From the NCBI RefSeq assembly GCF_009741735.1, contig NZ_WHOH01000001.1, forward strand, positions 992,001 to 1,056,000: a DNA stretch of 64,000 nucleotides, read 5' to 3'. Below, piece by piece: positions 8,539 to 61,938 of this stretch (its first letter is position 1; every line of letters begins with the position of its first letter). Source of the DNA: Lentibacillus sp. JNUCC-1 (GTDB lineage: Bacteria > Bacillota > Bacilli > Bacillales > Amphibacillaceae). The notes beneath the pieces are model-generated. The model saw nothing but the letters and a program-made list of their open reading frames with translations. It ran no database searches and was not told the origin of the DNA. The position numbers were made by a program, and so were the translations under genes.

Positions 8539-8706
8539 CTATCGGGGCAAGTGGGCGTTCTATCAGAGCAAGAGTATGTGCTATCGGAGCAAGAGCGTGT
8601 CCTATCAGAGCAAGACCACGTTCTATCGGAGCAAGAGCGTGTCCTATCAGAGCAAGACCACGTTCTATCAAAGCAAGAGTGCCTCCTATCAAACGAAGAT
8701 CGCCAC
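8539..8706 (+). repeat. 21-bp tandem array A1 (8 units, core CTATCNNAGCAAG)
   Basis: Eight head-to-tail units of exactly 21 bp. Positions 1-5 (CTATC) are invariant, positions 6-13 are RRAGCAAG-like, and the last 8 are variable. Because 21 is divisible by 3, several frames stay open on both strands and give low-complexity pseudo-proteins (LSEQERV, ALIERGL); these are judged spurious. Lies between divergent genes, flanked on both sides by REP-like halves. Most of 8329-8435 and 8794-8913 shows no other feature. Confidence 0.9.
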
Positions 8707-8760
8707 TTCCACTTCCCCATTAAAACGTGGCGCCGGATCCAAAATATGTTTGCTACGGTT

Positions 8761-8793
8761 TGGTGCCTGTCACCTCCAGGTTTTTGTCGAGTG
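8761..8793. repeat. REP-like palindromic half element
   Basis: TGGTGCCTGTCACCTCCAGG then TTTTTGTCGAGTG, same orientation as 8436-8468 and diverged in the middle. Bounds array A1 on the right. Confidence 0.7.
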
Positions 8794-8913
8794 GGATTTG
8801 GGTGGAGGCAGGTCTTTGCGGGTGACCTGTGTGGGGGATTGGTATAGTATTGTTTTAGGAATTATCTTTTTGGATTTTTTGATGAGTTGTGAAATGAAAG
8901 GATTGAAATATGT

Positions 8914-10148
8914 ATGGCTACATCCGTGCAGCGTTTGGGAAAGGATCATTTAATGCCGTGGAAGATGCTGGCGCTGCTTGTGGGGCTGCAGGTTCTGGTG
9001 GCTTTTGTGGGACGGAGTCTGGCACCACTTGGACCGTTGATTGGCGTTGACTTATCGTTGACGAAGGCGCAGATTGGGTTAATGCCTGCTGCGTTGTTTG
9101 TGGGACAGTCGGTTATAGCCCTGCCGGCTGGGTTTTTAACGGATCGGATTGGGACCAAGTGGATGCTCTTGATCGCAGCTGTTTGTCTGGGCGGCAGTTT
9201 TATGGTGATGACGTTTGTGTCTGTTTATGCGGGCATGCTGCTGATGATTGTACTTGGTGGTGTCGGGTACGGTGCGTCCCATCCGGCTGCGAATCGTGGC
9301 ATTTTGTATTGGTTTGATGCGAAGAAACGTGGCACGGCGATGGGCATTAAGCAAATGGGTATTACGGCAGGCTCTGCTTTGTCAGCGTTGTTGCTGCTGC
9401 CGCTTGCGAATGTGTGGGGCTGGCGACCAGCGGTTATTCTTGCCAGTGTGCTGCTGGTGATCGTGGGCTTGGCTGTGTTTATGCTTTTTCGGGATCCTGA
9501 GGGGTGGCAGAGGCGGAATCTTCAGCTGAACCGGCACGTTTTTTTAGTGGACTGGTTGAGATGGCGAAAAACGGAGCGCTCCTTTTGATCAGTTTTGCCG
9601 CGATGTTGTTGAGTGGGTCTCAGATGATTTTCAATACGTATATTGTGTTATTTGCTTATGAATTCTTGGAGATCGGGCTAATTTCTGCCGGGTTGCTGCT
9701 GGTAATCGCTGAAGTGGGCGGATCTTTTGGCAGGATCATCTGGGGGCTGGTCAGTGACCGGCTGTTTGACAGCAAGCGGATCGTGATTATTTTGATCATC
9801 TCCATAATGGTTGCGGGGATGGGGCTTTTGTTTGCCTTTTTGCCAGCGGGTATTTCTTTCTGGGCAATGACGCCGCTCACGTTTGTGTTTGGTTTCTGTG
9901 TATCGGGCTTCAATGGCATTTGGATGAACGCTGCGACGGAATTGGTGCCATTTCGGCAGTCCGGGATCGCTACCGGATTCAGCTTGACTATCGGTGCAGT
10001 TGGGGTCATGTTTGCTCCGCCAGTGTTTGGGCATCTGGTTGACACGACGGGTGCGTATACATGGGGCTGGCTGTTTGTCGCGATGATGATGGGCGTTGTG
10101 ATGACGCTGCTGTTGGGCGCGATGCGGTTTGTGAAGGGGCGTGGATAG
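8914..10148 (+). CDS. Major facilitator superfamily transporter (frameshifted here)
   Basis: A 12-helix secondary transporter split over two frames. The first half (helices 1-6) has the loop 2-3 motif GFLTDRIGTKW and motif GIKQMGITAGSALSALLLLP, typical of MFS exporters and nitrate/cyanate-like members. The second half (helices 7-12) begins after FRDPEG and includes GRIIWGLVSDRLFDSKR. Adding one G to the run at 9501-9504 joins the halves into 411 residues, the usual MFS length. The start at 8914 follows GAAAGGA at a longish distance; ATG at 8953 is the alternative. Monocistronic; substrate unknown. Confidence 0.87.
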
Positions 10149-10182
10149 GAGCGGTGTTTCGGGGTGGTGCTGGGTACCGGTC

Positions 10183-10215
10183 TGGTGCCTGTCACTTCCC
10201 GGTTTTTGTCGAATG
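10183..10215. repeat. REP-like palindromic half element at the left border of the AT-rich segment
   Basis: TGGTGCCTGTCACTTCCCGG then TTTTTGTCGAATG, 35 bp after the MFS stop codon. Base composition falls sharply to its right (10.2-19.5 kb). The rest of 10216-10445 is AT-rich with no feature called beyond possible promoters of the next gene. Confidence 0.75.
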
Positions 10216-10445
10216 GACATCCTTAATAAAGGGTTCAGCCTCTTAAGGTTGGGCTCTTTATTATGTTATTTGCACAAAATCCTATTTATTCACTTTGCAT
10301 CGGTTCTCACATCAAACTGGCATTTGTATTAATATGATGTTATATTACATCTTAGATATAATAATTGATTAATAATTTCTAATTAAGGTAAAAATATTTT
10401 TCTTTTGCACACACTTACATAAATACAAACTCGAGGTGATAACAC

Positions 10446-11096
10446 ATGATAAAAGCTTTAATATTTGATTTTGACGGCCTCATTTTAGATACGGAAACGG
10501 CATGGTATGAATCCTATAAAGAAACTTTGGAGGAACTATATGGTTATAATCTACAAATAGAGGATTTTGTTAAATGTGTTGGCTCCAATGGAGAAGTTTT
10601 TTGGGATTTTCTACAAACAGAGTTAGGTGATTCATATGATTATCATATGATTAAAGATAAAGCCGGAAAGTTACACACACTAAAAATAAAAAACTATAAA
10701 GAGCGGGATGGCGTAAAAGACTTTTTGGAGGATGCCTTCAAAAAAAATCTTAAAATCGCTTTGGCAACAAGCTCTTCCAAAAGGTGGGCTACGACACACT
10801 TAACCAATCTCAAATTAATATCTTATTTTGATATTTTGATAACGAAAGACGATGTGAAAGATGTCAAACCTTCTCCGGACCTATTTAATAAAGCAATCAA
10901 AGAATTAAATATAAGACCGTCAGAGGCCATCGTTTTCGAGGATTCATTAAACGGATTGATTGCAGCCCAAAAAGCAGATTTAAAGACAATTATTGTGCCT
11001 AATCCGATCACTAAGTCTCTTCCGTTCAAGGATTATCATTTAAAATTAAATTCTATGAAGGACATGACTCTTAAAGAGGTCATAAGTACGACCTGA
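10446..11096 (+). CDS. HAD superfamily hydrolase, beta-phosphoglucomutase-like
   Basis: 216-residue cytoplasmic HAD protein. Motif I DFDGLILDTE (nucleophile Asp8 and acid/base Asp10), motif II Ser in LATSSSKRW near residue 100, motif III Lys in DVKPSPDLF near 138, motif IV FEDSLNG near 162. The helical cap between motifs I and II is the C1 type of beta-phosphoglucomutase and sugar-phosphate phosphatases. Could dephosphorylate a sugar phosphate or act as a mutase; the sequence does not decide. 46 bp before the acetyltransferase gene, with which it may be co-transcribed. Start ATG follows GAGGTGATAACAC. Confidence 0.9.
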   Translation: MIKALIFDFDGLILDTETAWYESYKETLEELYGYNLQIEDFVKCVGSNGEVFWDFLQTELGDSYDYHMIKDKAGKLHTLKIKNYKERDGVKDFLEDAFKKNLKIALATSSSKRWATTHLTNLKLISYFDILITKDDVKDVKPSPDLFNKAIKELNIRPSEAIVFEDSLNGLIAAQKADLKTIIVPNPITKSLPFKDYHLKLNSMKDMTLKEVISTT

Positions 11097-11142
11097 ATAG
11101 ATTAATAAGATTAAATTCTATTTCTAAATTGGAGGTCATAAG

Positions 11143-12315
11143 TTGGAAGATATTATTGAATTAAAAGAAAGTGATTATGAATCTGTTTCTTTATTATCAC
11201 AATTTGCCTTTCAATACGAGTTATCTGAAGACGAGCTTATAAAGAAAAAGAAAGAAATGGCCCGGCATAGAATATGGGGGTGGATGGTGGAAGGGGATCT
11301 TGCAGCCAAATTGCATCTCATCCCACTTTCCTGCTATATTCTTGGAAACACGTACAAAATGGGTGGTATTAGTGCTGTTGGAACATGGCCAGAATACCGC
11401 AGACAAGGCATGGTCAAAAAACTGCTAAAGCATGCCTTAACAGAAATGAAAAAAGAAGGTCAAACCATATCTTTTTTACATCCATTTTCAATTCCATTCT
11501 ACCGTAAATATGGTTGGGAAATGGCTTTTCATAGTAACAAATATACCATTCCCATGAAAAAGCTAAAAAAAGACTGGGATGGTAAGGGATATTTACGTCG
11601 TAACCCATTGGACCTTGACACGCTACATTCGGTTTATACGAGGTACGCTAAACAATTTACAGGTATGCTCACACGAGATAGAAAATGGTGGGAGCAGCGA
11701 GTTTTTAAAGATAGATGGCACACCGCGGTCGCATATGATGAAGCTGGGAGTGCTGAAGGATATCTTCTTTACATGGTTAAAGAGAATGTTCTTCACGTGC
11801 ACGAAATGGTTGACTGCACGCTCAATGCCAGAAAGTTGTTATTCCAATTTATCAGTGACCATGACTCGATGGCAGAGGAGGTACGAATCACTCTACCTGA
11901 TAATGATCATATTAGGTTACTCATTAATGATCCTTCATTCCAACACAAAGTTGAACCCAATTTCATGGCACGTATTGTCGACGTGCTGGCATTTCTGGAA
12001 AAGTATCCATTACAAAAATGTTACTTAACACAGCCTCTCTTATTACATGTTGTAGATGACTTTTTACCTGAAAACAATGGTACATATCACTTTAATTCTA
12101 TTGGTGACCACATTAAGATAACCTATGAAGCTTATGATGACATTTCTGTCAAAGGGCTTCATTGTAACATCCAACAGCTAACCATTATGATGCTTGGTTA
12201 TAAGCGTCCCAGTGATCTCTTTAATGCTGGTCTTTTAAAGGGGGAATATGAAGATATAAAGAAACTCGAAAAAATCATCCCTTTTCAACAAACCTTATTA
12301 ACAGACTCATTTTAA
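11143..12315 (+). CDS. Eis-like GNAT acetyltransferase
   Basis: 390 residues with TTG start, chosen because GGAGG lies seven bases upstream. The N-terminal GNAT domain (about 1-150) includes the acetyl-CoA loop VGTWPEYRRQGMVKKLL (R/QxxGxG/A-like) and FLHPFSIPFYRKYGWE, hallmark of the Eis family. The middle region is a second GNAT-like fold (WWEQRVF), and the C-terminal 100 residues resemble the SCP2 sterol-carrier fold, ending LFNAGLLKGEYEDIKKLEKIIP. Family members acetylate amines of aminoglycosides or polyamines, but many bacillar members are uncharacterised. Ends at a shared terminator opposite frlR. Confidence 0.88.
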   Translation: MEDIIELKESDYESVSLLSQFAFQYELSEDELIKKKKEMARHRIWGWMVEGDLAAKLHLIPLSCYILGNTYKMGGISAVGTWPEYRRQGMVKKLLKHALTEMKKEGQTISFLHPFSIPFYRKYGWEMAFHSNKYTIPMKKLKKDWDGKGYLRRNPLDLDTLHSVYTRYAKQFTGMLTRDRKWWEQRVFKDRWHTAVAYDEAGSAEGYLLYMVKENVLHVHEMVDCTLNARKLLFQFISDHDSMAEEVRITLPDNDHIRLLINDPSFQHKVEPNFMARIVDVLAFLEKYPLQKCYLTQPLLLHVVDDFLPENNGTYHFNSIGDHIKITYEAYDDISVKGLHCNIQQLTIMMLGYKRPSDLFNAGLLKGEYEDIKKLEKIIPFQQTLLTDSF

Positions 12316-12340
12316 AGTCTTTCAGTCTTGTTACCTTTAT

Positions 12341-12380
12341 AAAAAATGAGCAGGGAAAGCGTTGTCCCTGCTCATTTTTT
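12341..12380. terminator. Bidirectional terminator between convergent genes
   Basis: Stem TGAGCAGGGA (12347-12356) with TCCCTGCTCA (12365-12374), A6 on the left and T6 on the right. Serves the acetyltransferase on + and the GntR regulator on -. Confidence 0.92.
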
Positions 12381-13125
12381 ATCCATCCATTCTAATATCA
12401 ATATGGAGACTCACTCTACTACCCAATAGGTAATAATTAGAGAAATGGACCGGTTTATTGTTGGTATCTTCAATTAGTTTATCAACTCTGATTACTGGGT
12501 CAATACTGGAGATATCAAATAGCTTACTAATGTCTGTTGTGGGCAAAGAAGCTTCAATCTTCTTCTTTGCATTTTGAAACTCTATGCCATAATCTTGGTG
12601 AATTATATCGAAAGTAGACACATCATCCTTAATTTTAGGAAGGATGTCGGGATAAACATCACATGGCAGATACGCAAAGTCAACACTAAAAACATCGTGT
12701 TCATCTTTAATGATTCTTACTAGCTTTACGAGTTCAAAAGGTTTTTTCCGATCGAACTTTTCCATTAAATATTTGTCCGCCTCTATGATTTCTTTTGATA
12801 TTACTTTTTTTGTGAATTGATTCTCCATGGCAGACAATCCTTCAGTAAACCCTTGCAAATCCAAAATATGAATAGGGCGTTTGTGCCCCTTAACAAAAGT
12901 CCCCTTGCCATGTACAACTTCTATAACATCCTCATTTTCTAGTTCTTTCAATGCTCTTCTAACAGTAATTCTGCTTGCATTAAATCGATCACACAACTCT
13001 TTTTCTGAAGGTAGTTTTGCCCCTTTTTCAATCATTTCTGTTTCAATCATATCTTTAATGTGAAGCTTAATTTGTTCATATAAAAAAACAGAGCTTTCTT
13101 TATTCATTTGTTTGTAAGTTGACAT
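12379..13125 (-). CDS. frlR: GntR/HutC family regulator, probable FrlR
   Basis: 248 residues: winged helix of the GntR type (about 10-75: KLPSEKELCDRFNASRITVRRALKEL, here two motifs SEKELCDRF and SRITVRRALKEL, then VVHGKGTFV) followed by the UTRA ligand-binding fold of HutC-type regulators (about 85-245). By position at the end of the frl cluster it corresponds to the fructosamine-responsive repressor of Bacillus. A near-perfect palindrome upstream of frlB (19397-19426) and another just upstream of this gene are candidate operators. Confidence 0.85.
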   Translation of the reverse strand: MSTYKQMNKESSVFLYEQIKLHIKDMIETEMIEKGAKLPSEKELCDRFNASRITVRRALKELENEDVIEVVHGKGTFVKGHKRPIHILDLQGFTEGLSAMENQFTKKVISKEIIEADKYLMEKFDRKKPFELVKLVRIIKDEHDVFSVDFAYLPCDVYPDILPKIKDDVSTFDIIHQDYGIEFQNAKKKIEASLPTTDISKLFDISSIDPVIRVDKLIEDTNNKPVHFSNYYLLGSRVSLHIDIRMDG

Positions 13126-13159
13126 ATTCCACCTTGCCTTATCATTTGTTAAAAACAGT

Positions 13160-13181
13160 ATGTTGTTTATTTAAATAACAT
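13160..13181. promoter_or_regulatory. Palindrome upstream of frlR, candidate autoregulatory operator
   Basis: ATGTTGTTTA pairs with TAAATAACAT (9 of 10) about 35 bp upstream of the frlR start. AT-rich, so chance is possible. Sequence differs from the frlB palindrome. Confidence 0.4.
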
Positions 13182-13227
13182 CCACCAGACATCCTGCGTA
13201 GCTAACCAAGAGTAGCATATGCAGGTA

Positions 13228-13242
13228 TGTTAACGGTTTCAA
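13228..13242. promoter_or_regulatory. cre-like site (catabolite control)
   Basis: ATGTTAACGGTTTCA fits the CcpA site consensus WTGNAANCGNWNNCW with one mismatch. It lies in the 330-bp gap between frlR and the cyclotransferase gene, which otherwise shows no gene. Confidence 0.45.
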
Positions 13243-13455
13243 ACACTTAGGCACAACTAAACTAAGTGGCGTATTATAAATCATATATTTTTAGTTTAAC
13301 AAAAAGGAATCAATATTCCTAGAAGAACACATACAATTTTTACAAAGGTGGGTATTACTATCTTTAACTCCAAATGAATCCTTGTGAGTTGCATTAGAAA
13401 GCCATTTTAAACTTTTTGTGCCATCTTTTACGTAAATCTGATAAATATGCTTCAC

Positions 13456-14235
13456 TTAGTGTACCATGCCCCCGTTAAGAATTTCCTCTGCGTAATGATT
13501 AGGTGGCGCTATCTCCTCCTCTTCCTTGTTGACAACAATGAAGGTTAATACATTGGTTTTCTTTTCACCATTCACTGTTACATCTATAAACGCCGGTCTA
13601 TAGTCACCTGTAAAAACACCTTCTCGTTTGTATAAATACTCTCTTGCTTTTTGATTAATTCTATAAACCTTTCCTTCTACTCTGCCACTTTTTTCAATAA
13701 TATCCGCCCTGCCACCGTCAGACTTGCCTATTAAAAATTGAAGCTTATAATTAGATAATACCCCTCTGCCAATTACGTCTTGAAATAAGTCATTCACGCC
13801 TGCTTCAATAAATCTTTTGTGATCCATACATGAGCCATAAGCAAAATAGAAAAGTTCTTCTTTTTTCTCATATAAATAGCTTTTCCAATCTCCGAAGCGT
13901 ACTTGTGTATGCATACCAGGGTCACGAGCCACATACATATATGCCTCTGTCTTCCCTTGATCGGTATATACCGTTCTGGTACACCGATGCAAAGAAGTGT
14001 TTTTTTCAGATATTAACCTATCGAACTGTTTCAATTGATTATCTGTTACCTCAATCAACTCACCATAGACCCTTTGATCGCCCTCTATTGCAAGTATTGG
14101 ATATCCGAGCGTGGTATCGTATAAGCTGCCAAAGACCCAGGCCTGTTCAAATAGCAATTGTGTCTTATACTTTGTATGAGAGTTAACTTCATTTTTTCGA
14201 AACGTTCCGTACACAAAAAGATATACAGTAGCCAT
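13456..14235 (-). CDS. Two-domain gamma-glutamyl(amine) cyclotransferase-like protein (YkqA type)
   Basis: About 259 residues. The N-terminal cyclotransferase-like domain opens FVYGTFRKNEVNS (the YGTLR-like glycine loop of GGACT/AIG2 proteins) and the second domain opens FYFAYGSCMDHKRF (YGSN-like loop) near residue 112, with the EGKVYRI and REGVFTGDYRP elements of the family. Known members convert gamma-glutamyl amines or peptides to 5-oxoproline and a free amine. Lies 55 bp after the corrected frlD stop, so probably in the frl transcript; not part of the Bacillus subtilis frl operon. ATG 14235 chosen for its GAAAGGG ribosome site. Confidence 0.8.
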   Translation of the reverse strand: MATVYLFVYGTFRKNEVNSHTKYKTQLLFEQAWVFGSLYDTTLGYPILAIEGDQRVYGELIEVTDNQLKQFDRLISEKNTSLHRCTRTVYTDQGKTEAYMYVARDPGMHTQVRFGDWKSYLYEKKEELFYFAYGSCMDHKRFIEAGVNDLFQDVIGRGVLSNYKLQFLIGKSDGGRADIIEKSGRVEGKVYRINQKAREYLYKREGVFTGDYRPAFIDVTVNGEKKTNVLTFIVVNKEEEEIAPPNHYAEEILNGGMVH

Positions 14236-14290
14236 ATCATCAGACCCTTTCTTCACTTCCCATTAACCTGATTAAAGGTTCCCTGCTTGC

Positions 14291-15108: not shown

Positions 15109-15126
15109 TACTCTGCACCCTTTCTA

Positions 15127-15981: not shown

Positions 15982-15982
15982 A

Positions 15983-16865: not shown

Positions 16866-16890
16866 TCTTACACCTCCGTACACTTGGTTG

Positions 16891-16928
16891 AAAAAATGTT
16901 GTTCCGAGACTCTAAATCTCGGAACAAC
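16891..16928 (-). terminator. Hairpin with U tract between frlO and frlN (attenuator)
   Basis: On the minus strand GTTGTTCCGAGA pairs perfectly with TCTCGGAACAAC, followed by ATTTTTT. A strong intrinsic terminator inside the operon would let the abundant binding protein be made in excess of the permeases. Confidence 0.85.
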
Positions 16929-16942
16929 GGGTTATTTTTTTG

Positions 16943-19426: not shown

Positions 19427-19427
19427 G

Positions 19428-22207: not shown

Positions 22208-22396
22208 CTGTCGGAGCTAGGGTGCGTTCTATCAGAGCAAGATCGACTTCTATCAGAGGAAGAATGCGTTCTATCGGAGCAAATGCGCATTCTATCAGAT
22301 GAAGACCCTGTTCTATCAAAGCAAGATCCAACCCTATCCAAGCAACAGCCGATTCTATCAAACAAACTTCCTCTTCTATCACACCAACCGTCTCCT
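22208..22396 (+). repeat. 21-bp tandem array A2 (9 units)
   Basis: Nine units of exactly 21 bp. The first is degenerate (CTGTCGGAGCTAG), the others start CTATC. Units at the left are of the CAGAGCAAG kind and decay rightward to CACACCAAC. Same polarity as A1. Apparent open frames over it are by-products of the repeat. Confidence 0.9.
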
Positions 22397-22438: not shown

Positions 22439-22472
22439 ATTCGACATAATTCGGGAAGTGACAGGCACCCGC
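22439..22472. repeat. REP-like palindromic half element
   Basis: ATTCGACATAATTCGGGAAG then TGACAGGCACCCG, the inverted orientation of the halves at 8436 and 10183. Confidence 0.75.
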
Positions 22473-25212: not shown

Positions 25213-25627
25213 TGAGAGCAACGTGATTTCCGCTACGGGTAATCGCTTTAACTTCATAACAGCTCAAGTGCGACATCTGTTCAAAAAAACCATTTTCACA
25301 GTGTCTTCTAGCCGCGGGCACGGCCTCAGCCTCCTTGCCCCGGCAAGGGGTATGTCGACGTTGCCCGCAAAGGGCGGTTTTAGTCGACCCTCCTTAATGT
25401 ACTCGCTGTGGGGTCTTCGGACTCGTGCTGTTCCCGCAGGAGTCGACTACCCTTCGCTACAATCACTTTATCCTGTTTGGCGCATATACATTTTTGAGGT
25501 AGCAATCCTAGCGGAGGGAAAATACGAAGACTCCAGTGGGAGGATAAGCCTCGGTGAGACCCCGGAACGCGATAGCGTGAGGAGGCTCAGCAGCGCCCAC
25601 GGAAAGCGCAGTGTTTTCCCGGAGCGG
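25213..25627. repeat. Composite inverted repeat, copy 2, between nanA and the regulator genes
   Basis: Left half (about 25213-25475) and right half (about 25510-25627) are diverged inverted copies: GCCTC...CTGTGGGGTCT on the left mirrors AGACCCC...GAGG on the right. The left half carries an extra cassette (about 25338-25402) containing CCCCGGCAAGGGG and a GTCGAC...GTCGAC hairpin. The right half matches 61-172 and 49769-49945. No coding potential found; it fills most of the 700-bp gap. Confidence 0.85.
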
Positions 25628-28818: not shown

Positions 28819-28965
28819 CTATCGGACGAATAACACGGCCTATCCAAGCAAGAAGCCCCTCTATCAAACGAAAAACAGCCCCTATCCAAGCAAGAACACG
28901 TTCTATCAAAGGAAGCACCCAGTCTATCCAAGCAAAAACCCCCTCTATCCAAGCAACCCTCCCCA
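28819..28965 (+). repeat. 21-bp tandem array A3 (7 units)
   Basis: Seven exact 21-bp units, roughly alternating CTATCCAAGCAAG and CTATCAAACGAA cores. Located between convergent nanE and the NSS symporter gene, after a terminator and directly before a REP-like palindrome. Confidence 0.9.
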
Positions 28966-34658: not shown

Positions 34659-34739
34659 CAAGAGCCAGAAGGAAGCGCCCACGGCTTGGCGGCTTCCTTC
34701 TGGCTTTATTGTTTGTGTGAATTGGAGGTGCGGCTGCGG

Positions 34740-34907
34740 CTATCAAAGGAAGGTGGCGCTCTATCCAAGCAAGGAGCACACCTATCGCACGAAGCATCCG
34801 CCCTATCCAAGCAAGAACCCGTTCTATCGAAGCAAGTATGCAGTCTATCAGAGCAAAAGCCACTTCTATCATACGAAGATGTGATCCTATCAAAGCAAGC
34901 CCACAAG
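34740..34907 (+). repeat. 21-bp tandem array A4 (8 units)
   Basis: Eight exact 21-bp units starting CTATC. Unit-by-unit matches with A5 (offset 248 bp) show they arose by duplication of the whole block. Confidence 0.92.
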
Positions 34908-34987
34908 CAAAAGCCAGAAGGAAGTGCCCACAGCTTGGCGACTTCCTTCTGGCTTTTTGACTGTTTGAACTGGAGGTACGGCTGCGG

Positions 34988-35155
34988 CTATCAAAGGAAG
35001 ATGGCGGTCTATCCAAGCAAGGAGCACGCCTATCGCACGAAGCATCCGCCCTATCCAAGCAAGAACCCGTTCTATCGGAGCAAGCATGCAGTCTATCAGA
35101 GCAAAAGCGACTTCTATCATACGAAGATGTGATCCTATCAAAGCAAGCCCACAAG
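34988..35155 (+). repeat. 21-bp tandem array A5 (8 units)
   Basis: Duplicate of A4 in the same unit order; unit 5 changed from CTATCGAAGCAAG to CTATCGGAGCAAG, unit 1 GGTGG to GATGG. Confidence 0.92.
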
Positions 35156-35241
35156 CAAAAGCCAGAAGGAAGTGCCCACGGCTTGGCGGCTCCTTCTGGC
35201 TTTTATTAGAAATGTAGTCTCATCCCTCCATCGCAAATGCT

Positions 35242-36282
35242 TCACAATTTTATATGATTAAAAGAGTTATGCCGTTGTGAAGGCGGCTCGTCCGTTTGCG
35301 GGAACGCATTGAACGGAGGCGCATGGTAGACACGCCACCGCCCATGTCCGGTTTTCTTTAAATCAAGTGCGTTTAACAAATGATATGCAGTGCTCGCCAT
35401 GCTGAGCTGCAGCAACTCACGGCATTCACTGTTTGATATAGTAGGTTTCCGTAAAAGAAAATAATCCAATATGACGCGTACATGAGCGTCAATCGAAGTA
35501 TGACCGCATCGGGGACATGACCATTTCACGCGTAGTCTTTCCATTGGAGAATGGTCGCATTTTTCACAAGGAATTCCTTGAATAAAGTGATCCTCCTGAA
35601 GTCCAAACATGCTGACAAGGTCAGGGTGATGCGGTTTGTCACTTGAATTGAGCAGGCGATCCAGGTTGAGTTGCTGCTGGCGTGTTAGCAGACGTTGAGG
35701 ATATTTTTTCTCGATTTCTTGAAGTTTTTGCGGGAGGGATTCCACATGAATAAGTTTATTTTGAACATCAGGTGCTTCATGAATGTTATGCAGGATGGCA
35801 TTTGGATTGCTGACGACGGTGAGGGTTTCGATCGGCATGAGTGGGAGATTGAAGTTTTGCAACCAAGATTGGAGGTGCATTTTTTGCTGTGTGACCTGTT
35901 GAATGGGGTTGCGCTGACGCTTTTTATCAGCTCCGACCGTTTGAATAAATTGATGGTGCAGGCTGTCATATGCAAGTTCACCTGTCATGTTTTTGATTTC
36001 AATGATGAGCTGAAACGCCGGCGTGACAATTTTCGTATCCATTTGAAAAGGGAATCGTCCATTTAAAAGCCGCAGTCCCCTATAATATGCTGCATTTTTC
36101 AACGGGGAAATTGAGGCAGCGTAGTCCACGGCCTGTTCTCCCTGGTAACCGGCCACGTGCTTTCCGTATTCACTGAGCAATTTGGGGTGCTCTCGATAAC
36201 GGGGTTTTAAACTTCGGAACAGCGCTTCATAACACAATAGAACGGGAGGTTTGGTGCGGGGTTTACCTGACAATTGAGTCAC
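35242..36282 (-). CDS. NERD domain protein with C-terminal zinc ribbon
   Basis: 346 residues. NERD (nuclease-related) region about 35-145: GYQGEQAVDYAASI with the Glu of GxxGE, and the core AFQLIIEIKNMTGELAYD, where Glu-x-Lys is the restriction-endonuclease-like catalytic pair. Zinc ribbon near 245-275 (CEKCDHSPMERLRVKWSCPRCGH in parts CEKC, SCPRCGH). C-terminal helical segment with putative winged helix (SNSECRELLQLSMASTAYHLL). Expected to be a DNA-processing or DNA-associated protein; no function known. Boxed in by 21-bp arrays on both sides (16 units left, 11 right). Confidence 0.87.
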   Translation of the reverse strand: MTQLSGKPRTKPPVLLCYEALFRSLKPRYREHPKLLSEYGKHVAGYQGEQAVDYAASISPLKNAAYYRGLRLLNGRFPFQMDTKIVTPAFQLIIEIKNMTGELAYDSLHHQFIQTVGADKKRQRNPIQQVTQQKMHLQSWLQNFNLPLMPIETLTVVSNPNAILHNIHEAPDVQNKLIHVESLPQKLQEIEKKYPQRLLTRQQQLNLDRLLNSSDKPHHPDLVSMFGLQEDHFIQGIPCEKCDHSPMERLRVKWSCPRCGHTSIDAHVRVILDYFLLRKPTISNSECRELLQLSMASTAYHLLNALDLKKTGHGRWRVYHAPPFNAFPQTDEPPSQRHNSFNHIKL

Positions 36283-36395: not shown

Positions 36396-36626
36396 CTATC
36401 AAACGAAGATCGCGTTCTATCAAAGCAAAAGCCTCATCTATCGGACGAAGCACTGGCTCTATCAAAGGAAGAACCGGTTCTATCAGAGCAAGAATCTCAT
36501 CTATCCAATGAAGTATCGGTTCTATCAAACGAAGAACGCACTCTATCAGAGCAAGCACACCGGCTATCCAAGCAAGAACACCTTCTATCATACGAAGACG
36601 CCGTCCTATCCGAGGAACCGCACTGT
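36396..36626 (+). repeat. 21-bp tandem array A6 (11 units, the longest)
   Basis: Eleven exact 21-bp units starting CTATC, with position-6-13 variants AAACGAAG, AAAGCAAA, GGACGAAG, CAAGCAAG. Begins about 110 bp upstream of the NERD gene start and is followed directly by a terminator-like stem and a REP element. The remainder of 36283-36395 shows no clear feature. Confidence 0.92.
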
Positions 36627-36677
36627 TAAAAGCCAGAGGGAAGCGATCCCAGCTTGGCGACTTCCCTCTGGCTTTTG
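36627..36677. terminator. Terminator-like inverted repeat
   Basis: AAAAGCCAGAGGGAAG pairs with CTTCCCTCTGGCTTTT. On the minus strand it can terminate the gene ending at 36751. Confidence 0.85.
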
Positions 36678-40700: not shown

Positions 40701-40868
40701 CTATCCAACGAAGAGCACCATCTATCAAAGGAAAAAACCACTCTATCACACGAAGAACACTTCCTATCCAACGCAAAACCCCTTCTATCCAAGCAAAACC
40801 TCATTCTATCAAACGAAGAACGCTCTCTATCAAAGCAAGACAGCATCCTATCCAACGAACCCCCTCCC
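40701..40868 (+). repeat. 21-bp tandem array A7 (8 units)
   Basis: Eight exact 21-bp units starting CTATC; a decayed ninth may precede it. CCAACGAAG cores predominate. Between convergent genes and followed by another terminator-like stem and a REP element. Confidence 0.9.
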
Positions 40869-40896: not shown

Positions 40897-40942
40897 AAAA
40901 AGCCAGAAGGAAGCCGCCCATGGGTGACTTCCTTCTGGCCTT
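40897..40942. terminator. Terminator-like inverted repeat
   Basis: AAAAGCCAGAAGGAAG pairs with CTTCCTTCTGGCCTT around a CCGCCCATGGGTGA loop. On the minus strand it lies 145 bp past the CocE-type gene. Confidence 0.85.
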
Positions 40943-40950
40943 CAAAAGAT

Positions 40951-49500: not shown

Positions 49501-49945
49501 AGAGCACCGTGATTTCCGCTGCGGGAAGTCGCTTTAACCTTATAACAGCTCAAGTGCGACATCTGTTCAAGAAGACCACTTTCACAGTGTCTTCTAGCCG
49601 CGGGCACGGCCTCAGCCTCCTTGCTCGCAAAGACCGCTCACTGTGGGGTCTTTGGACTCGTGCTGTTCCCGCAGGAGTCGACTTCCCTCCGCTCCAATCA
49701 CTCTGTTTAATCTAGTAGCTTGGACCGTTCCACTCACCTATGAGTTAGAGAATAATCTCTCTTACCTAGCTCGGGGGAAACACGGAGACTCCTGTGGGAT
49801 GCAAAGCCTCGGTGAGACCCCACAGCGCTCAGTAGGGGAAGGAAGGCTAAAACCGCGACGTCCTGTCGCAACGCCTTCATGACCCACGTCCTGTGGGCCC
49901 GAGGCTCAGCAGCGCCCACTGGACGCAGAGTGTTCCCTTCCGAGC
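49501..49945. repeat. Composite inverted repeat, copy 3, inside the opp cluster
   Basis: Left half (about 49501-49712) closely matches 25213-25475 without its cassette. Right half (about 49769-49945) matches 61-172 but carries an extra 70-bp cassette (about 49829-49899) with two hairpins sharing loop GTCCT: GCGACGTCCTGTCGC and CCCACGTCCTGTGGG. Flanks 49725-49768 match 5-60. Sits between oppF (minus) and oppA (minus); 49408-49500 and 49946-49992 hold nothing else recognised. Confidence 0.87.
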
Positions 49946-52412: not shown

Positions 52413-52579
52413 CTATCTGAGGGGAGGCAGTTCTATCAGACGAAAAGTTTGGTCTATCCAAGCGAGAGGCAGTTCTATCAAACGAAGAACACAGACTATC
52501 CAAGCAAGAAGCAACTCTATCAAACGAAGAAGACTCTCTATCCAAGCAAGCCTTCATCCTATCCACCCCCCAACACCAC
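52413..52579 (+). repeat. 21-bp tandem array A8 (8 units)
   Basis: Eight units, the first 20 bp and decayed (CTATCTGAGGGGAG), the rest 21 bp, alternating CTATCCAAGCRAG and CTATCARACGAA cores. The last unit decays to CTATCCACCCCCC. Between the opp promoter and the 3' end of the SLAP gene. 52182-52412 otherwise holds nothing recognised. Confidence 0.9.
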
Positions 52580-52597: not shown

Positions 52598-52643
52598 AAA
52601 AAGCCAGAAGGAAGCCGTCCCATGGGTGGCTTCCTTCTGCCCT
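52598..52643. terminator. Terminator-like inverted repeat
   Basis: AAAAAGCCAGAAGGAAG pairs with CTTCCTTCTGCCCTT around CCGTCCCATGGGTGG; nearly identical to 40897-40942. On the minus strand it lies about 150 bp past the SLAP gene. Confidence 0.8.
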
Positions 52644-52652
52644 TCAAAAGAT

Positions 52653-52696: not shown

Positions 52697-52793
52697 TTTT
52701 TCTGTGTAGCGTCGGTCGTTTTCTACTAAAGGCTTCAAAAGCGCCCTCATGACGACTTCTTTCTCGCTTTCACGAATATAATAATCCAGCAGC

Positions 52794-53618: not shown

Positions 53619-53693
53619 TGAGGTCACATCCTTGTATCGCGTGTTGTCTCTATTATAGTATTGAATGTCATATATCAAAAGCCTTCATCGTTC

Positions 53694-53736
53694 AAAAAGA
53701 ATAACCGCCGAGCATCATGCCCGGCGGTTGTTCTTT
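53694..53736. terminator. Terminator of the wall nuclease gene
   Basis: ACCGCCGAGCATCATGCCCGGCGGT hairpin shown by its arms ACCGCCG and CGGCGGT, with A5 to the left and T7 to the right; acts on the minus strand after 53739. Confidence 0.85.
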
Positions 53737-53738
53737 TT

Positions 53739-56700: not shown

Positions 56701-58586
56701 TTAAATTGAACCGCTTGTGCCATCGGCCCGTTTTCTGTCAGACGAATGCCGCCATTAACAGTTGTGTTTTCTGGTTTGAATTCATCAGTTACAACAACGA
56801 GATCACCATGTTGCTGTGGTGCAACCGCTCTGGCAGGTTCCACTTCCACTCTCATGCCTTCAATGCTTTCCCAGAAATCGATAGCGTATTTGTTTGGTTC
56901 AAAAACATCAAATGTATCTTCTCCAGCGATCTTAGATGGAATATCACTTGATGTGATTTTAACCGGGGCAGGAAGTTCAACATTTTTTTCTTGAATATTG
57001 ACAGAACCGCCCTTATCATCACGGGCATTGATCTGAGTAACCGGCAAATCGGTTTTTTCTTTGTCACTATAGCCGTCAATATAATACTCGTCTACCTTAC
57101 CTGTGACTTCAACAAGATCGCCGACTGAGACGTCTTCTGCTTTTCCAGTATAAATGACGATCCCTTCAGATGTTTTCGGGTTGCCGTCGTATTGATCTTC
57201 GGGTGTCTGCATGTGGAAGTAGTGGGAGCCTCTAATATCATACTTATATGTCACGATGCCCTCGACATTTTCCACATTCTGACCTTTCATTGGTGATTCG
57301 TGACTCTCCCCTTGGATATGGTGGATTTTCACGCCATCTTCTGCCTGGTAAACCGTGTAACTAAATTCAACTGGGTCACTTGTCGTCAACCCATCTTTTT
57401 TGGCAATAGCTTTGACTGTCATGTTCTCACTGACTGTTATTGGTCCATTGTAAAGTTTACCTTGTTCTGGATCACTTCCGTCAGTGGTGTAAAAAATTTC
57501 CGCTCCTTCAGTACCCGTTTTGAGTGTGACTTCAGAATCAGCCGGGATGGTACCTGCATTCGGGCTTGCTGTAACAGGGCGTACTTTCGAACTATCAGCT
57601 ACAACATCCTGTTTGCTTCTCGGAATGATTTGATGGACATCGCCAAATTGGGTCACAATGCCTGTGATAGATTCATAGGTTCTATCAGTGTTGAGCCCAA
57701 GTGCGTCAGTTTCATCTCGAACGACAAAACCGTTGCCATCAGCATCTTCGGCACTATAGTTGCTGCCATCGACACCTGTGAGTTTAACGTTTTCAATTAT
57801 GACAAGCTTGGATTGATGGTTTTTTAACTGGCTGCCATCAATCGGCAAGGCACTTGGCACACCAACACCCGCGGTTTTCTCTTCTATGGTCGTGCCTTGT
57901 AATTGCAACAGGCCATTATAGTTATCCAAAGATCCGGTTACGGTAATCTCATCACCAAGTTGCACATCGAGTGACGGTGGACGAAGCGCAATCGCGGCAT
58001 TATCATCCTGGATCTGTATGGAGTTTTTTAATTTTGCTGTTACAATGCCTTTTGTTTTAGCTTCACCCGTTTCTTGAGCTCGAACTTCTGTAATGGTCTT
58101 AAGCTCGAGTGGTGGAGCAGGCTCTTCGGATTCGGAGGTGAATTTCATCTCTGTTGGATCTTTCAATCCGTAGTGTGACGATATATAACCCAAAAGTTTC
58201 CCAGTTACAATCACTTCTTTCCCAACGTTATTAGGATTTGTTTTCAGACCAAAATCTGATCTAAATTGTTTTGAAACCTGTACGTACAGCATGTTATCCG
58301 TATTGGTTTCATCCTTATTATCAGCGATTGCGTAATTATAATCCTCAGGGAATTCTTCAGGATTTTTTGTAACATTATCTTTACTTAGAGCGTACCCAAC
58401 AATATATCCTTTGACGGTCTTGTCACTGCCATCATTATCCAATCCAATTGCCTCTGCTACAGAAATAGAATGATCAGCATCCGCTGCCTGAACTGTAAAT
58501 GGCGCAGCTGCTGGGGTAAACAAACTCAGCAAAAGAACAGCAATCAACAATATGCTATAGTGCTTTTGTCTTGCTTTTAAATGCAT
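53739..58586 (-). CDS. YhcR-type wall-anchored nuclease/5'-nucleotidase, 1615 residues
   Basis: Signal peptide (about 1-35, hydrophobic core ILLIAVLLLSLF, AQA-like cleavage VQAAD). Then a YhcR-type N-terminal domain (about 38-150), OB-fold repeats (about 160-330 and 430-680), a chitobiase C-terminal-like segment (about 340-415: GTIPADSEVTLKT, IFYTTDGSDP), an endonuclease/exonuclease/phosphatase domain (about 690-1005: VASYNVENFS, VVNNHLNSKRG, LGDMNDFE, SDHDPV), a calcineurin-like phosphoesterase (about 1007-1260: MHMNDTHAR, NGGDVFSG, FGNHEFD, GGHSHSE) and a 5'-nucleotidase C domain (about 1300-1490: NGGGIRAPI, NGFTGQGGDGF). The C-terminus has PPGS/DGD repeats, LPVTA at 1581-1585, a membrane helix and RKRK: a sortase signal. 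Degrades extracellular DNA/RNA and releases phosphate from nucleotides. Confidence 0.92.
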   Translation of the reverse strand: MHLKARQKHYSILLIAVLLLSLFTPAAAPFTVQAADADHSISVAEAIGLDNDGSDKTVKGYIVGYALSKDNVTKNPEEFPEDYNYAIADNKDETNTDNMLYVQVSKQFRSDFGLKTNPNNVGKEVIVTGKLLGYISSHYGLKDPTEMKFTSESEEPAPPLELKTITEVRAQETGEAKTKGIVTAKLKNSIQIQDDNAAIALRPPSLDVQLGDEITVTGSLDNYNGLLQLQGTTIEEKTAGVGVPSALPIDGSQLKNHQSKLVIIENVKLTGVDGSNYSAEDADGNGFVVRDETDALGLNTDRTYESITGIVTQFGDVHQIIPRSKQDVVADSSKVRPVTASPNAGTIPADSEVTLKTGTEGAEIFYTTDGSDPEQGKLYNGPITVSENMTVKAIAKKDGLTTSDPVEFSYTVYQAEDGVKIHHIQGESHESPMKGQNVENVEGIVTYKYDIRGSHYFHMQTPEDQYDGNPKTSEGIVIYTGKAEDVSVGDLVEVTGKVDEYYIDGYSDKEKTDLPVTQINARDDKGGSVNIQEKNVELPAPVKITSSDIPSKIAGEDTFDVFEPNKYAIDFWESIEGMRVEVEPARAVAPQQHGDLVVVTDEFKPENTTVNGGIRLTENGPMAQAVQFKLQPNGPARDFAVKTGDKFTEAITGVVNYGYGNYKVYSNLDEVKSVFKEGNTEPQKTTITKEADKLTVASYNVENFSNNKSETPPKKAENIAKAFVDGMNSPDIIGIVEVMDNNGQDKGPNDADASESYERLISEIKAQNGPTYEYANINPEYNKDGGAPNGNIRVGYLYNPDRVTMIDGQKGSSTAAVGYENGQLTLNPGRVSPDTFEGTRKPLAAQFEFQGESVVVVNNHLNSKRGDDGTFGQNQPPVLGSEAERIKLARAVNDFVKEIKQDNPKENVVVLGDMNDFEFSTPLKVLKGNELTNLIDQVPAEERYSYVFQGNSQVLDHILVSNNLSEASKVDVLHVNADFTDMHGRASDHDPVLAQLDLAAADNSYKLNIMHMNDTHARAEQLPKMLTAIKDFRATHPESLLLNGGDVFSGTLYFNEFKGQADLAIMNMMDIDAMVFGNHEFDLGDEESGQKSLSEFVAGAEFPFLGTNIDFSKDPFMKDLETNESLAEDPNNGEIYNSIVKEVNGEKIGIFGLTTEDTINIASPMDVKFEDFKASAEKAVKEFEDAGINKVVAVNHLGYDSAPDVGNDLRLAKEVDGIDVIIGGHSHSEVTPPDVITKGENGKEKAPTVIVQAGEYGEYLGTLNVSFDDNGEIVGHAGELLEVDNYEADPEAEKVLAAYKEQIDEVMNEEIGAEAMKDLINPRQDEPGDDSVRANETELGNLVTDAMLAKAKEKFPKTVIAFQNGGGIRAPIDKGPITTGEVISVLPFGNDPVIATLTGQEIKDILEHAVRQAPAENGGFLHVSGMKYYYDSTKEPGDRVAKMYLDRGGELIEIQPDGEYLVTTNGFTGQGGDGFETFAKAYEDGRVKDIGETDWQQLRDYMVEEQYLDGVVDPEREGRIIDLKGEEAPEIPGESDENGDDTTPPGSDGDGDQNGTPPGSVGDGDKDGTPPGSGGNGGQKLPVTATTMYSILLAGIILILSGTALVLYRKRKLAH

Positions 58587-59098
58587 CTTTGTCTCTCCCT
58601 ATGGTTTATTTATCCCTGTCCTAAAAAATTGTCAACCTCTAGTTAGAATGTTTCTATTGATATGTATATCTCAGGATCCAGAGATAGATTTAATTAATGG
58701 ATACAAACGCGCACTTTGACAGCGTTTTCACATTTATAAGAACACCTCGCTTTCTGTAAAAGTAAGCCGTTCCTACAATGTAAGTTACTAAACTATTATA
58801 AGGTTGTCAATGTATATTAGCGACAATTAAAGATGTTTTAATAATGTTTTTATTCGACTGTAAATAGTTCTTTGTGGTCATTTTCAGCTGTTCTTATAAG
58901 AGTTAAAAGACCTAGTTCGGGACTATTGTATTAGTATTAATATAAACTGTTTGTGAAAGGTTGCTGGAATTATAAAACTTGAAAGTGACAGACATTAGCC
59001 AAATTGTTCAATCCTAAGAGAAGAAAGATCCCTTTAAAATAAGTTGATATTCAGTCTTGTAAGGTTAATTCTCGACTTTAGTTTAAAAATTTAAAATA
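58587..59098. other. AT-rich leader region of the wall nuclease gene
   Basis: A possible minus-strand promoter TTGACA (58630-58635), 17 bp, TAAATA (58607-58612) lies so close to the ribosome site AGGGAGAGA that the leader would be about 14 bases; a promoter further upstream may be the real one. A weak REP-like fragment GAAAGTGACAGACATTAG is near 58981. Nothing else recognised. Confidence 0.4.
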
Positions 59099-59149
59099 TA
59101 AAAAAGCCGGGTAGAAGTCGGTTCCAAGGAGTGACTTCTTTCTAGCTTT
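59099..59149. terminator. Terminator-like inverted repeat (diverged)
   Basis: AAAAAAGCCGGGTAGAAGTC pairs imperfectly with GACTTCTTTCTAGCTTT. Diverged relative of the AGCCAGAAGGAAG family. Confidence 0.65.
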
Positions 59150-59206
59150 GTATGGACCATAACTAAATAATTTACCTATCAATTTCTGTGGCAACGTTCA
59201 TAAACT

Positions 59207-59252
59207 AAAAGACAGAAGGAAGCCAACCCAAGAATGACTTCCTTCTGTCTTT
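59207..59252. terminator. Terminator of the GH31 gene
   Basis: AAAGACAGAAGGAAG pairs with CTTCCTTCTGTCTTT around CCAACCCAAGAATGA; on the minus strand it lies 55 bp past the GH31 stop codon. Confidence 0.85.
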
Positions 59253-59306
59253 ATATATCTGTAATTATCTCATTCAAACTACAGTTCGACTTGATAGAAC
59301 CAAAAA

Positions 59307-61643
59307 TTAAAGGTCTATCTGTCTCTTTTGCTGTCCATTCACCTTTACATCATCCACCGAATCTCCATGAAATCCAACTAATATCGACCCATAAGCCGGC
59401 TTGAAATTTCCACTCTGGCCCACAACGCGGACATCAACGCCCTTGGCTTCGCTCACGATTTTGAGCTCAAGCTTCATGTAATCACCGTTTTCATAGGCAT
59501 ACGTTTCCCCGTCATCGTCGTAAAATGTCATCCGATACGTCTCTCCCGGTTCACCATGGTAAACGTTCAATGTCACATCTTTTGGTGTTTTGTCCTTGTT
59601 GGATGTCCAGTCGCCCATGACAAAAGCGGTCCCTTTTTTCACGAAAATCGGGAGGTCTTCAAGTTCAGCATGAATCAGGTGTGACATACCACCCGCATAT
59701 TCTTGCTCAGTCATGATATCGACCCAGGTGCCCTCTGGCATGTACACAGCGCGGTCTGTCACAGACGGCTGCAAGATTGGGGCGATCATCACGTTGTCGC
59801 CGATCATGAACTGATCATTCAAATTGTATGTTTTTTCATCGTCCGGAAATTCCATGAACAATGGGCGCATCACAGGGAGTCCTGAAACACTCGCTTCATA
59901 AAAAAGACTGTACAGCTGTGGCATCCATTCGTAACGCATCTGAATATAGCGGCGCATGATCGCTTCATACTTTTCCCCGAATTGCCATGGTTCCTGGTAG
60001 CGAAAACCGATCGCTGAGTGGTTCCGGAAAAATGGGGTAAACGCGCCGACCTGGGTCCAGCGGGTAAGAAGTTCGGCGTTGGTATCATGAGCAAATCCGC
60101 CAACATCCGGGCCTGTGAATGCAACACCGGAAAGGCCGAGATTCATCACCATTGGAAGCGACATTTGCAAATGCTCCCAGAAGCTGCGGTTGTCGCCAGT
60201 CCATACCGACCCATACCGCTGTACGCCGCCATAGCCTGCACGGGTCAACAGGAATGGCCGCTTGCCGTCGAGCTGCTTTTTCATCCCTTCATAAGTTGCC
60301 TCGCCCATCAAAAGACCGTACACATTATGGAGTTCGCGATGTGTTGTTGGGCGTCCGTCGTTTCGGTGCATGACCGACGTGTCCATCGTTTTCGTTTCAT
60401 TGAAAACAGCTGGTTCGTTCATATCGTTCCAAATGCCCTCGACGCCGATTTCGGTGTAAAAAGCATGCTTCTCTCCCCACCAGTCGCGCACCTTTTGCTC
60501 AGTAAAGTCTGGAAATGCACTGGTTCCAGGCCATACATCGCCAAAGTAGATGTCTCCTTCAAGGTATTTACAGAAAAGATCATCACGAACGCCTTCCTGA
60601 TAAATCGCATATTCGCTGTCTTTTTTCACACCTGGGTCAACAATCGGAACGACTCGGATGCCCATGTCACGCAGATCAGCGATTAATTTTTTCGGATTGG
60701 GAAAGCGATCTTTGTCGAACGTGAACACGCGATAACCATCCATATAATGAATATCGAGGTGAATCACATCAATTGGAATGTCTTTGTCGATAAAATTTTG
60801 AGCGAGTGCACGCACTTCTTTTTCCGACTCGTAGCTGTAGCGTGACTGATGATAGCCGAGCGACCATTTTGACGGGAGTGGAATGCGTCCAGTCAAATGG
60901 GTGTACTGCTGAAGGACAGCTTTTGGATCAGGCCCAGCCATGACATAATAATCAAGCTGACCGCCCTCTGCGGAAAAGCTGTACGTGTCTTCAGATGTTT
61001 TCATGTCAAAAAACGACCGGAATGTATTGTCAAAAAAGATGCCATGCGCCCGGCCTTCGCGGAGTGTCATGAAGTACGGGATCGACTCATACAATGGATC
61101 GGTCTCAGGATTGTGCGGGGCATACACGTCCGTGTTCCACATCTCGAGCGCTTCACCGCGTTTGTTGAGATGTCCGCTTTTCTCCCCAAAGCCATAAAAG
61201 TGATCTGCCCCATGCATTTTTTTGAACGCAGCCACTGTACCGTCTGCTTGGTAGCACATGCCGCGCTCCCCTTCCCCGACAAGCTCCTGGCCGCTTGAGT
61301 CTTTAATCGTGATGCGGAACGGTGTTTTTGTGATATGAATTTCAAGACGTTCTGTTGCGAGCGTCAGGTAGATATCCTCATCAATAACCCGCACCGCGAC
61401 ATCTTCCGCGTTTGCAATTACTGCCCGAGACTGATCAAGGGCAGGCGTACTCTCGGGATTCATCACCACACGCACAATGTCAGCCCGGAAAAACCGAACC
61501 GCCACTTCAGCGTTCTCACACGAAAATAAATAAGTAGAACCATCTTTTTCATAACTATTCAAACTGCCAACATCACGGTAAATAACCGGCTTCTCTGCCT
61601 GGCTATTCCCCGGATGAATCGCAAAACTCGTATCGTCTAGCAT
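59307..61643 (-). CDS. Glycoside hydrolase family 31 alpha-glucosidase
   Basis: About 778 residues, cytoplasmic (no signal). N-terminal beta-sandwich (about 1-230), TIM barrel (about 230-590) and C-terminal beta domains. GH31 landmarks: GYHQSRYSYESEKEVRALA near 263 (in parts), DVIHLDIHYMDGYRVFTFD near 290 (in parts), nucleophile Asp in GIWNDMNEPAVF near 406, RPFLLTRAGYGGVQRYGSVWTGDNRS near 468 (in parts; acid/base Asp in WTGDN), and GPDVGGF near 515. Cleaves alpha-1,4/1,6-glucosides or related alpha-linked sugars. ATG 61643 follows AGGAGG; upstream 35 residues of open frame lack a ribosome site. Neighbour of a sulfatase gene. Confidence 0.93.
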   Translation of the reverse strand: MLDDTSFAIHPGNSQAEKPVIYRDVGSLNSYEKDGSTYLFSCENAEVAVRFFRADIVRVVMNPESTPALDQSRAVIANAEDVAVRVIDEDIYLTLATERLEIHITKTPFRITIKDSSGQELVGEGERGMCYQADGTVAAFKKMHGADHFYGFGEKSGHLNKRGEALEMWNTDVYAPHNPETDPLYESIPYFMTLREGRAHGIFFDNTFRSFFDMKTSEDTYSFSAEGGQLDYYVMAGPDPKAVLQQYTHLTGRIPLPSKWSLGYHQSRYSYESEKEVRALAQNFIDKDIPIDVIHLDIHYMDGYRVFTFDKDRFPNPKKLIADLRDMGIRVVPIVDPGVKKDSEYAIYQEGVRDDLFCKYLEGDIYFGDVWPGTSAFPDFTEQKVRDWWGEKHAFYTEIGVEGIWNDMNEPAVFNETKTMDTSVMHRNDGRPTTHRELHNVYGLLMGEATYEGMKKQLDGKRPFLLTRAGYGGVQRYGSVWTGDNRSFWEHLQMSLPMVMNLGLSGVAFTGPDVGGFAHDTNAELLTRWTQVGAFTPFFRNHSAIGFRYQEPWQFGEKYEAIMRRYIQMRYEWMPQLYSLFYEASVSGLPVMRPLFMEFPDDEKTYNLNDQFMIGDNVMIAPILQPSVTDRAVYMPEGTWVDIMTEQEYAGGMSHLIHAELEDLPIFVKKGTAFVMGDWTSNKDKTPKDVTLNVYHGEPGETYRMTFYDDDGETYAYENGDYMKLELKIVSEAKGVDVRVVGQSGNFKPAYGSILVGFHGDSVDDVKVNGQQKRQIDL

Positions 61644-61746
61644 ACAAAAACCTCCTGACTTATAAAGGGATAATATCATGGGGGCTGTCGCTGATACCTG
61701 TGACCTGGGTGAAAGCACCGCGTTGGTAACTGTCTCCATTAAAATC

Positions 61747-61795
61747 AAGCCCTGAAGGAAGTCCTCTCATGGGGTCGCTTCCCTCTGGCCTTTTA
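61747..61795. terminator. Terminator-like inverted repeat next to array A9
   Basis: GCCCTGAAGGAAG pairs imperfectly with CTTCCCTCTGGCC, then TTTTATTTT. Lies between the sulfatase 3' end and the GH31 start. Confidence 0.65.
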
Positions 61796-61798
61796 TTT

Positions 61799-61938
61799 TA
61801 TCCAGGTTTTCGAGTATGGTATCCAGGTTTATTTTCGTATATCCAGGTTTTTCAGGCGGATATCCAGAATATTTTCTGTATATCCAGAATTTCGGGCGCT
61901 TTATCCAGAATTTAAGCGGTTTTATCCAGGTTTCACCT
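61799..61938 (+). repeat. About 21-bp tandem array A9 with a different core (TATCCAGGTTT/TATCCAGAATT)
   Basis: TATCCAG recurs at 61799, 61820, 61840, 61861, 61881, 61902 and 61923 (steps of 21, 20, 21, 20, 21, 21). Same polarity, same period and same place next to a terminator-like stem as A1-A8, but the core reads TATCCAGR rather than CTATCNNAGCAAG and spacers are T-rich. Probably a divergent subfamily. Confidence 0.85.

Follow-up and report, generated by a model that had tools for sequence, protein, structure and literature searches.

What are the phased tandem repeats of this locus, and what might bind them? The stretch analysed here (64,000 nucleotides of Lentibacillus sp. JNUCC-1, contig NZ_WHOH01000001.1, positions 992,001 to 1,056,000; hereafter the window) was described in an earlier note, made from its letters alone, as carrying nine intergenic arrays of about 74 units with an invariant CTATC core, suggestive of a cooperatively bound protein that was left unnamed. 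A candidate for that protein is encoded inside the arrays' own coordinates. It is a NERD-domain nuclease-like gene (35242..36282, - strand, 346 aa) between the arrays A5 and A6, and we propose it as their cognate gene.

Eight of the nine arrays were recovered as CTATC arrays, with 66 units in all and the + strand throughout: A1 (8539..8698, 8 units), A2 (22229..22388, 8 units), A3 (28819..28957, 7 units), A4 (34740..34899, 8 units), A5 (34988..35147, 8 units, about 90 bp past the 3' end of the NERD gene), A6 (36396..36618, 11 units, about 110 bp upstream of its start codon), A7 (40701..40860, 8 units) and A8 (52413..52571, 8 units). The period of 20-21 bp given in the earlier note was borne out, as the step between CTATC units is exactly 21 bp in 57 of 58 cases and 20 bp in one, the first step of A8. 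A 42-bp step does not occur in the eight arrays; thus, none is broken by a unit with an altered CTATC. The strict motif CTATCNNANSRAR has 55 matches in the window, against 0.80 on average and 4 at most in 100 dinucleotide-preserving shuffles. The CTATC columns hold 2.0 bits each by construction, since the units were found by that word. Beyond them, the unit columns A8 (not to be confused with the array), A11 and A12 hold 1.77, 1.61 and 1.77 bits, positions 9, 10 and 13 hold 0.8-0.9 bits, and the spacer positions 15-20 hold 0.15-0.49 bits. Together A4 and A5 form one 248-bp tandem duplication, with A4 as its first half; their six differences lie at unit positions 7, 14, 14, 17, 20 and 20, none of them in CTATC, column A8 or AAR.

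The ninth array of the earlier note, A9 (61800..61938, + strand), is a repeat of about 20-21 bp with the core TATCCAG(R)(W)TT in place of CTATC. By eye, it matches none of the four NERD-flank cores of its own genome, and this TATCCAG array is possibly what remains of a lost pair. Larger ORFs border the arrays in no single shared arrangement: the neighbours diverge at A1, run co-directionally at A2, A6 and A8, and converge at A3, A4-5 and A7; to the right of A8, the neighbouring gene matches nothing in Pfam. The near-identical repeats and longer unique spacers of a CRISPR are absent, as each 21-bp unit joins a short core to 8 bp that vary.

Several other elements were seen in the window. Related terminator-like hairpins, AGCCAGAAGGAAG...CTTCCTTCTGGCT with variants, form a family that mostly adjoins the arrays; its unstranded members lie beside A4 (34663..34707), between A4 and A5 (34912..34957), between A5 and the NERD gene (35160..35203) and at the right end of A6 (36631..36677), with others of the same family at 40900-40944, 52600-52645, 59205-59250 and 61750-61795. 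The same hairpin also adjoins the arrays of a locus of the same genus (L168), whose repeat core differs. A second, slightly variable element, ATTCGACATAATTCGGGAAGTGACAGGCAC, follows several arrays (near 22449, 28965, 36705, 40953 and 52655). Rfam matches to the Bacillaceae-1 RNA (RF01690) occur at 49831-49897 on the + strand (76 bits) and at 25337-25399 on the - strand (35.1 bits), in keeping with a Bacillaceae-like origin. Two overlapping ORFs in different frames (8914-9588 and 9504-10148) cover the start of an MFS transporter, where the MFS_1 Pfam match reaches profile position 187 of 347; the pair is possibly a frameshifted gene.

The protein encoded by the window NERD gene matches Pfam PF08378 with an E-value of 1.1e-11 and 45.6 bits (cut-off 22.1). 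NERD is its sole Pfam family and the only one common to the members, being matched at E 0.01 or better by 45/45 aligned homologues; the alignment covers 45 of 50 loci, five having been dropped as partial, weak or duplicate. G48, D82, K97, Q129 and the four cysteines of a zinc ribbon (C239, C242, C256 and C259 in the window protein) are invariant in the 45 homologues, and E49 and E95 are conserved at 90% or more. The D...ExK residues (D82, K97, E49 and E95) are taken by us to be a nuclease-type active site. Judged from its sequence, the window protein would combine a PD-(D/E)XK-type nuclease with a Cys4 zinc ribbon and, probably, a C-terminal winged helix-turn-helix (HTH). A structure model from the single sequence had a mean pLDDT of 34.9, and a profile search of solved structures gave weak matches to the zinc-ribbon region (E 0.086 or worse). 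The genome of the window contains four NERD genes of the array-linked family. A search with the window gene in this genome and 36 relatives gave a match in 26/37 at E 0.001, and a class-wide profile search gave matches at E 1e-20 in 43/200 genomes; in some of these every match was of the non-array type.

Arrays were scored as an identity of at least 0.55 between bases 20 or 21 apart in an 84-base window, and 1.5 kb was retrieved on either side of each NERD homologue. Most NERD flanks of the 26-genome match set contained degenerate tandem repeats with differing cores and a period of 20 or 21. Overall, 61/76 distinct NERD loci passed and 15/76 fell below the threshold. This total is made up of 23/30 best NERD loci, 20/20 further rows (19/19 distinct, as L208 duplicates L179) and 21/30 rows of a class-wide set (19/27 new, with three loci already known). 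Among homologues of a control gene for an ABC binding protein in the same 37 genomes, arrays were found at 0/29 loci, and none of 600 shuffles passed. The association is also specific within the NERD proteins: arrays were found at 0/8 loci encoding NERD proteins without the C-terminal zinc ribbon module and at 0/12 loci of a sister subfamily of NERD-zinc ribbon proteins of about 309 aa, these 8 and 12 loci being part of the lower rows of the class-wide search. Because a relaxed array detector gave 9/29 false positives in the controls, its per-side array counts are not taken as evidence. From these sequence comparisons, the arrays appear to belong to the NERD gene that sits among them. The earlier note had raised the case that such arrays might be confined to one genome; the same kind of array was found in others. 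Its invariant CTATC holds for every unit of the eight window arrays and is not general, CTATC being one of many cores.

The period is restricted. When other periods from 14 to 30 were scored in 50 loci, only 18 and 27 appeared, once each, and 19 and 22 stayed below the threshold in all 50; in the 30 class-wide rows, two loci touch 0.55 at period 19, with main periods at 0.81 and 0.95. A genome of the same genus has the core CGCATATC at period 20, and three loci (L195, L200 and L210) combine periods 20 and 21. At L205 (3550-3785), unit orientation flips within an array and reverse-complement cores carry on the series, as judged by eye.

Co-variation of core and protein was examined in one genus with 40 sampled species, with homologues 50-100% identical to the query; of 34 rows, four of which came from a second genus, 30 passed the array threshold, and 27 loci were kept after three without a usable array were dropped. 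Over these 27 loci, core similarity correlated with similarity of the whole protein at a Mantel r of 0.60, of the zinc ribbon-HTH part at 0.70 and of the NERD part at 0.47. Within the one genus, the partial correlation was 0.60 for the zinc ribbon-HTH part (p 0.001, as with the other p values here an optimistic figure, since genus-level loci share ancestry) and -0.06 for the NERD part. The C-terminal part has 70/250 scanned columns and 11 of the 20 that follow core similarity most closely. The 11/11 loci with proline at one HTH position, which belong to few lineages, have a GCAAA core, and GCAAA is absent in 16/16 loci with other residues there; outside the genus this rule fails. Over 38 diverged loci, the correlation was weak, at 0.09 for the whole protein (p 0.04), 0.10 for the NERD part (p 0.02) and 0.06 for the zinc ribbon-HTH part (p 0.15), and cores therefore seem to turn over fast. 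A switched core (GCAAA versus ACGCACG) was seen at L333 and L364 versus L361, among homologues up to 81% identical to L333.

The comparison of core with spacer between orthologous arrays, suggested in the earlier note, was made at six syntenic loci, of a genus other than that of the window, with arrays upstream and downstream of the gene, and cores diverge less. Mismatch per column was 0.100 downstream and 0.126 upstream for cores and 0.224 downstream and 0.209 upstream for spacers (pooled, 0.113 versus 0.217; p 1.5e-4). Mismatch outside the arrays was 0.17 and 0.11 in a first version of the count, which places spacers at or above background and upstream cores (0.13) not below it. One species is short of exactly one array unit. 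Among dispersed arrays, 5/10 tested locus pairs (L401/L402, L401/L403, L402/L403, L403/L404 and L395/L398) match between species in one flank or both, at 83-93% identity, so that some arrays are old residents with rearranged interiors. Presence also follows the gene. The core TACGCACG, searched at period 20 with one mismatch allowed, was found in 12/12 species with its gene group, which was set at 65% identity after inspection, and in 2/28 without it, with one match each (p 1.6e-8); the reversed control gave 10 matches in 5 genomes. In one genome (G266) the gene copy is in two pieces, yet 10 array matches are kept, and in another (G191) the group's gene copy is reported with an inner stop.

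Arrays with the core of a NERD gene are also found far from it. A genome-wide search, likewise suggested in the earlier note, gave 121 matches of the two-unit CTATC pattern in its own genome (73 forward, 48 reverse; 0 for the reversed pattern), with at least 29 arrays among the 100 places listed. A near-identical form of the pattern was found in 0/60 other genomes, one of the same genus included. At a second NERD gene of the same genome the core is GTGCATAT and the period 20; its two-unit pattern occurs 79 times genome-wide, at ten listed places, and in none of 36 relatives. Evenly spaced 200-kb samples of NERD-bearing genomes gave 7 array rows in G014, 5 in G040 and 2 in G007, and those of three genomes without a NERD match gave 0 rows each. 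By eye, several G040 rows and both G007 rows resemble coding repeats, and the G014 arrays L257, L259 and L266, far from NERD genes, share the cores of that genome's own NERD flanks; the L258 rows of G014 have other cores. No NERD-core array was seen in the 200 kb sampled from G007, so that dispersal may not be universal. A DNA scan of the whole collection gave at least 119 stretches, and most of the 80 listed among them were tandem repeats of other kinds or matches due to chance. One array of similar style was seen on a Siminovitchia terrae contig (NZ_QYTW02000032.1; L124, 230-400), and a look-alike at L056 consists of iteron-like repeats beside an ORF read as replication-initiator-like.

Could the arrays have arisen without a dedicated protein, as plain slippage minisatellites? 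They do change copy number and duplicate as blocks, as in A4/A5 and in the shared-flank arrays with rearranged interiors. We hold this to be very improbable, since only periods 20 and 21 stand out, one protein clade is associated, cores change less than spacers and the differing units of one array keep phase. The selection on core and phase argued for in the earlier note thus finds support in the periods and in the core and spacer mismatches, and slippage alone, which that note had set against it, is contradicted by the control loci, the core/spacer contrast and the phase kept despite differing units. No more credible is a role of the arrays as RNA or as coding sequence for repeat peptides, to which a 21-bp unit of seven codons and several frames open through the arrays might point. 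Ten folds (seven of the + strand, three of the - strand) gave z-scores of -1.97 to +2.25 against shuffles with no shared fold apparent, and no Rfam match lies at the arrays. CTATC is unchanged in every unit (the units being found by that word) and so is fixed at third codon positions whichever forward frame is read, a fixation that peptide selection would not seem to demand, and 20-bp arrays shift frame with each unit. The slippage reading was rejected on the control loci, and the coding and RNA readings on the fold scores, Rfam and the codon evidence.

The remaining alternatives accept a binding protein and differ in what it does. The arrays may be chromosome-organising or regulatory sites that the protein coats for nucleoid shape or promoter repression, with NERD as a structural relic and no cutting; this we regard as a real possibility, if the less probable one. 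Some arrays stay at shared places between species, cores of orthologous arrays are constrained, and the position of A6 upstream of the window NERD gene makes autoregulation possible. Array orientation also fits the replichore in 29/40 clusters (G268, G281, G283, G264 and G275), a mild bias over orthologues that are not independent and one that gene strand bias could cause. A relic, however, would not need the invariant D82 and K97 or the well-conserved E49 and E95, and arrays occur in all three gene settings, converging, diverging and co-directional. It seems unlikely that the protein is a restriction-like or defence nuclease, titrated by chromosomal arrays and released or directed against invading DNA. 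NERD occurs in defence proteins, and at E 0.01 the PADLOC PglW profile matches 30/45 members and the NCBIfam MADS6 kinase profile 37/45, both presumably due to the NERD domain; the patchy distribution over the class noted above would suit defence as well. Against it, neither PADLOC nor NCBIfam has a family that the window protein itself matches at E 0.01, and there is no conserved partner gene, as no neighbour family occurs in more than 5/73 loci and the one that reaches 5/73 resembles array-derived ORFs. The window protein also had no relative at E 1e-5 among 72,556 plasmids (tblastn) or 50,697 phage records, and no close relative was confirmed in viral contigs.

Known systems share parts of this arrangement. 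Plasmid iterons are direct repeats of about two helical turns beside the gene of an initiator Rep protein, and the NERD arrays are likewise two-turn direct repeats next to the gene of their proposed binder; unlike iterons, they are chromosomal, with many dispersed copies, a nuclease domain and no plasmid match. In the ParB and Noc systems, the parS and NBS sites are single palindromes bound by CTPase clamps. The NERD arrays resemble these as dispersed chromosomal sites of one, here proposed, DNA-binding protein, and differ as tandem arrays paired with a nuclease fusion. The closest likeness is to REP/REPIN-RAYT (TnpA-REP), the REPtron. REPs are described in the DNA flanking each RAYT examined (PMC3116915), and groups of RAYT proteins as having co-evolved with their cognate repeats (PMC8266576; PMC3116915). 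The NERD gene similarly has its repeats in its flanks (61/76 loci) and many extragenic copies, with a genome-specific dispersed repeat in the cases of CTATC, GTGCATAT and G014. RAYTs are of the HUH family and act on single-stranded palindromic hairpins, whereas here a predicted PD-(D/E)XK-type NERD protein with zinc ribbon and HTH goes with helically phased tandem arrays. Pfam finds only NERD in the window protein and no HUH/Y1 transposase, and the unit is no palindrome or hairpin, the ten folds (RNA parameters, CTATC arrays only) lying near shuffles. Since protein family and repeat type both differ, the NERD/array pair is not a member of REP-RAYT. The NERD domain (PF08378), common in bacteria, is also present in SmdA of Staphylococcus aureus, described as a membrane protein of cell division that is without several conserved NERD residues (PMC9040797). 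The authors of that report stated in 2022 that, to their knowledge, NERD function had not previously been studied experimentally (PMC9040797). No description of NERD genes with repeat arrays was found among the titles and abstract openings listed by searches of open-licence papers.

We consider it likely, on the sequence evidence, that the arrays are the DNA sites of the adjacent NERD-zinc ribbon-winged HTH protein, in an organisation like that of REP-RAYT and built of unrelated parts. The C-terminal module would read one recognition core per unit (here CTATCNNANSRAR), and the two-turn spacing of 20 or 21 bp would align the bound copies along the same side of the helix. The nuclease domain, of PD-(D/E)XK type and with its active-site residues intact, may then act at or through the arrays. 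The NERD gene lies between arrays of its own, with arrays of the same core spread through intergenic space and some persisting, in a related genus, at the same places across species. Scattered extragenic repeats would thereby depend on one gene, in the manner of REP-RAYT. What the sequences show is the association and its specificity, the two-turn phase, the conservation of cores, the dispersal and partial persistence of arrays and, within one genus, co-variation with the DNA-binding module; we infer physical binding of the units, cooperative filaments, nuclease action, and upkeep and spread of arrays by the nuclease. More tentatively, and with somewhat less than even confidence, we suggest that these are self-maintaining nuclease/repeat pairs forming a widespread class, in which the enzyme would cut or nick its own arrays and repair between arrays would seed and renew them.

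If this is true, then gene and repeat population would evolve together as a non-HUH counterpart of REP-RAYT, and several independent pairs, each with a different password, would coexist within a single genome. With a candidate DNA substrate for a particular gene, the function of NERD becomes directly testable, and the many natural protein/core pairs, including homologues with switched cores, offer material for a DNA recognition code. The pairing would also account for one kind of degenerate repeat found between the genes of this bacterial class.
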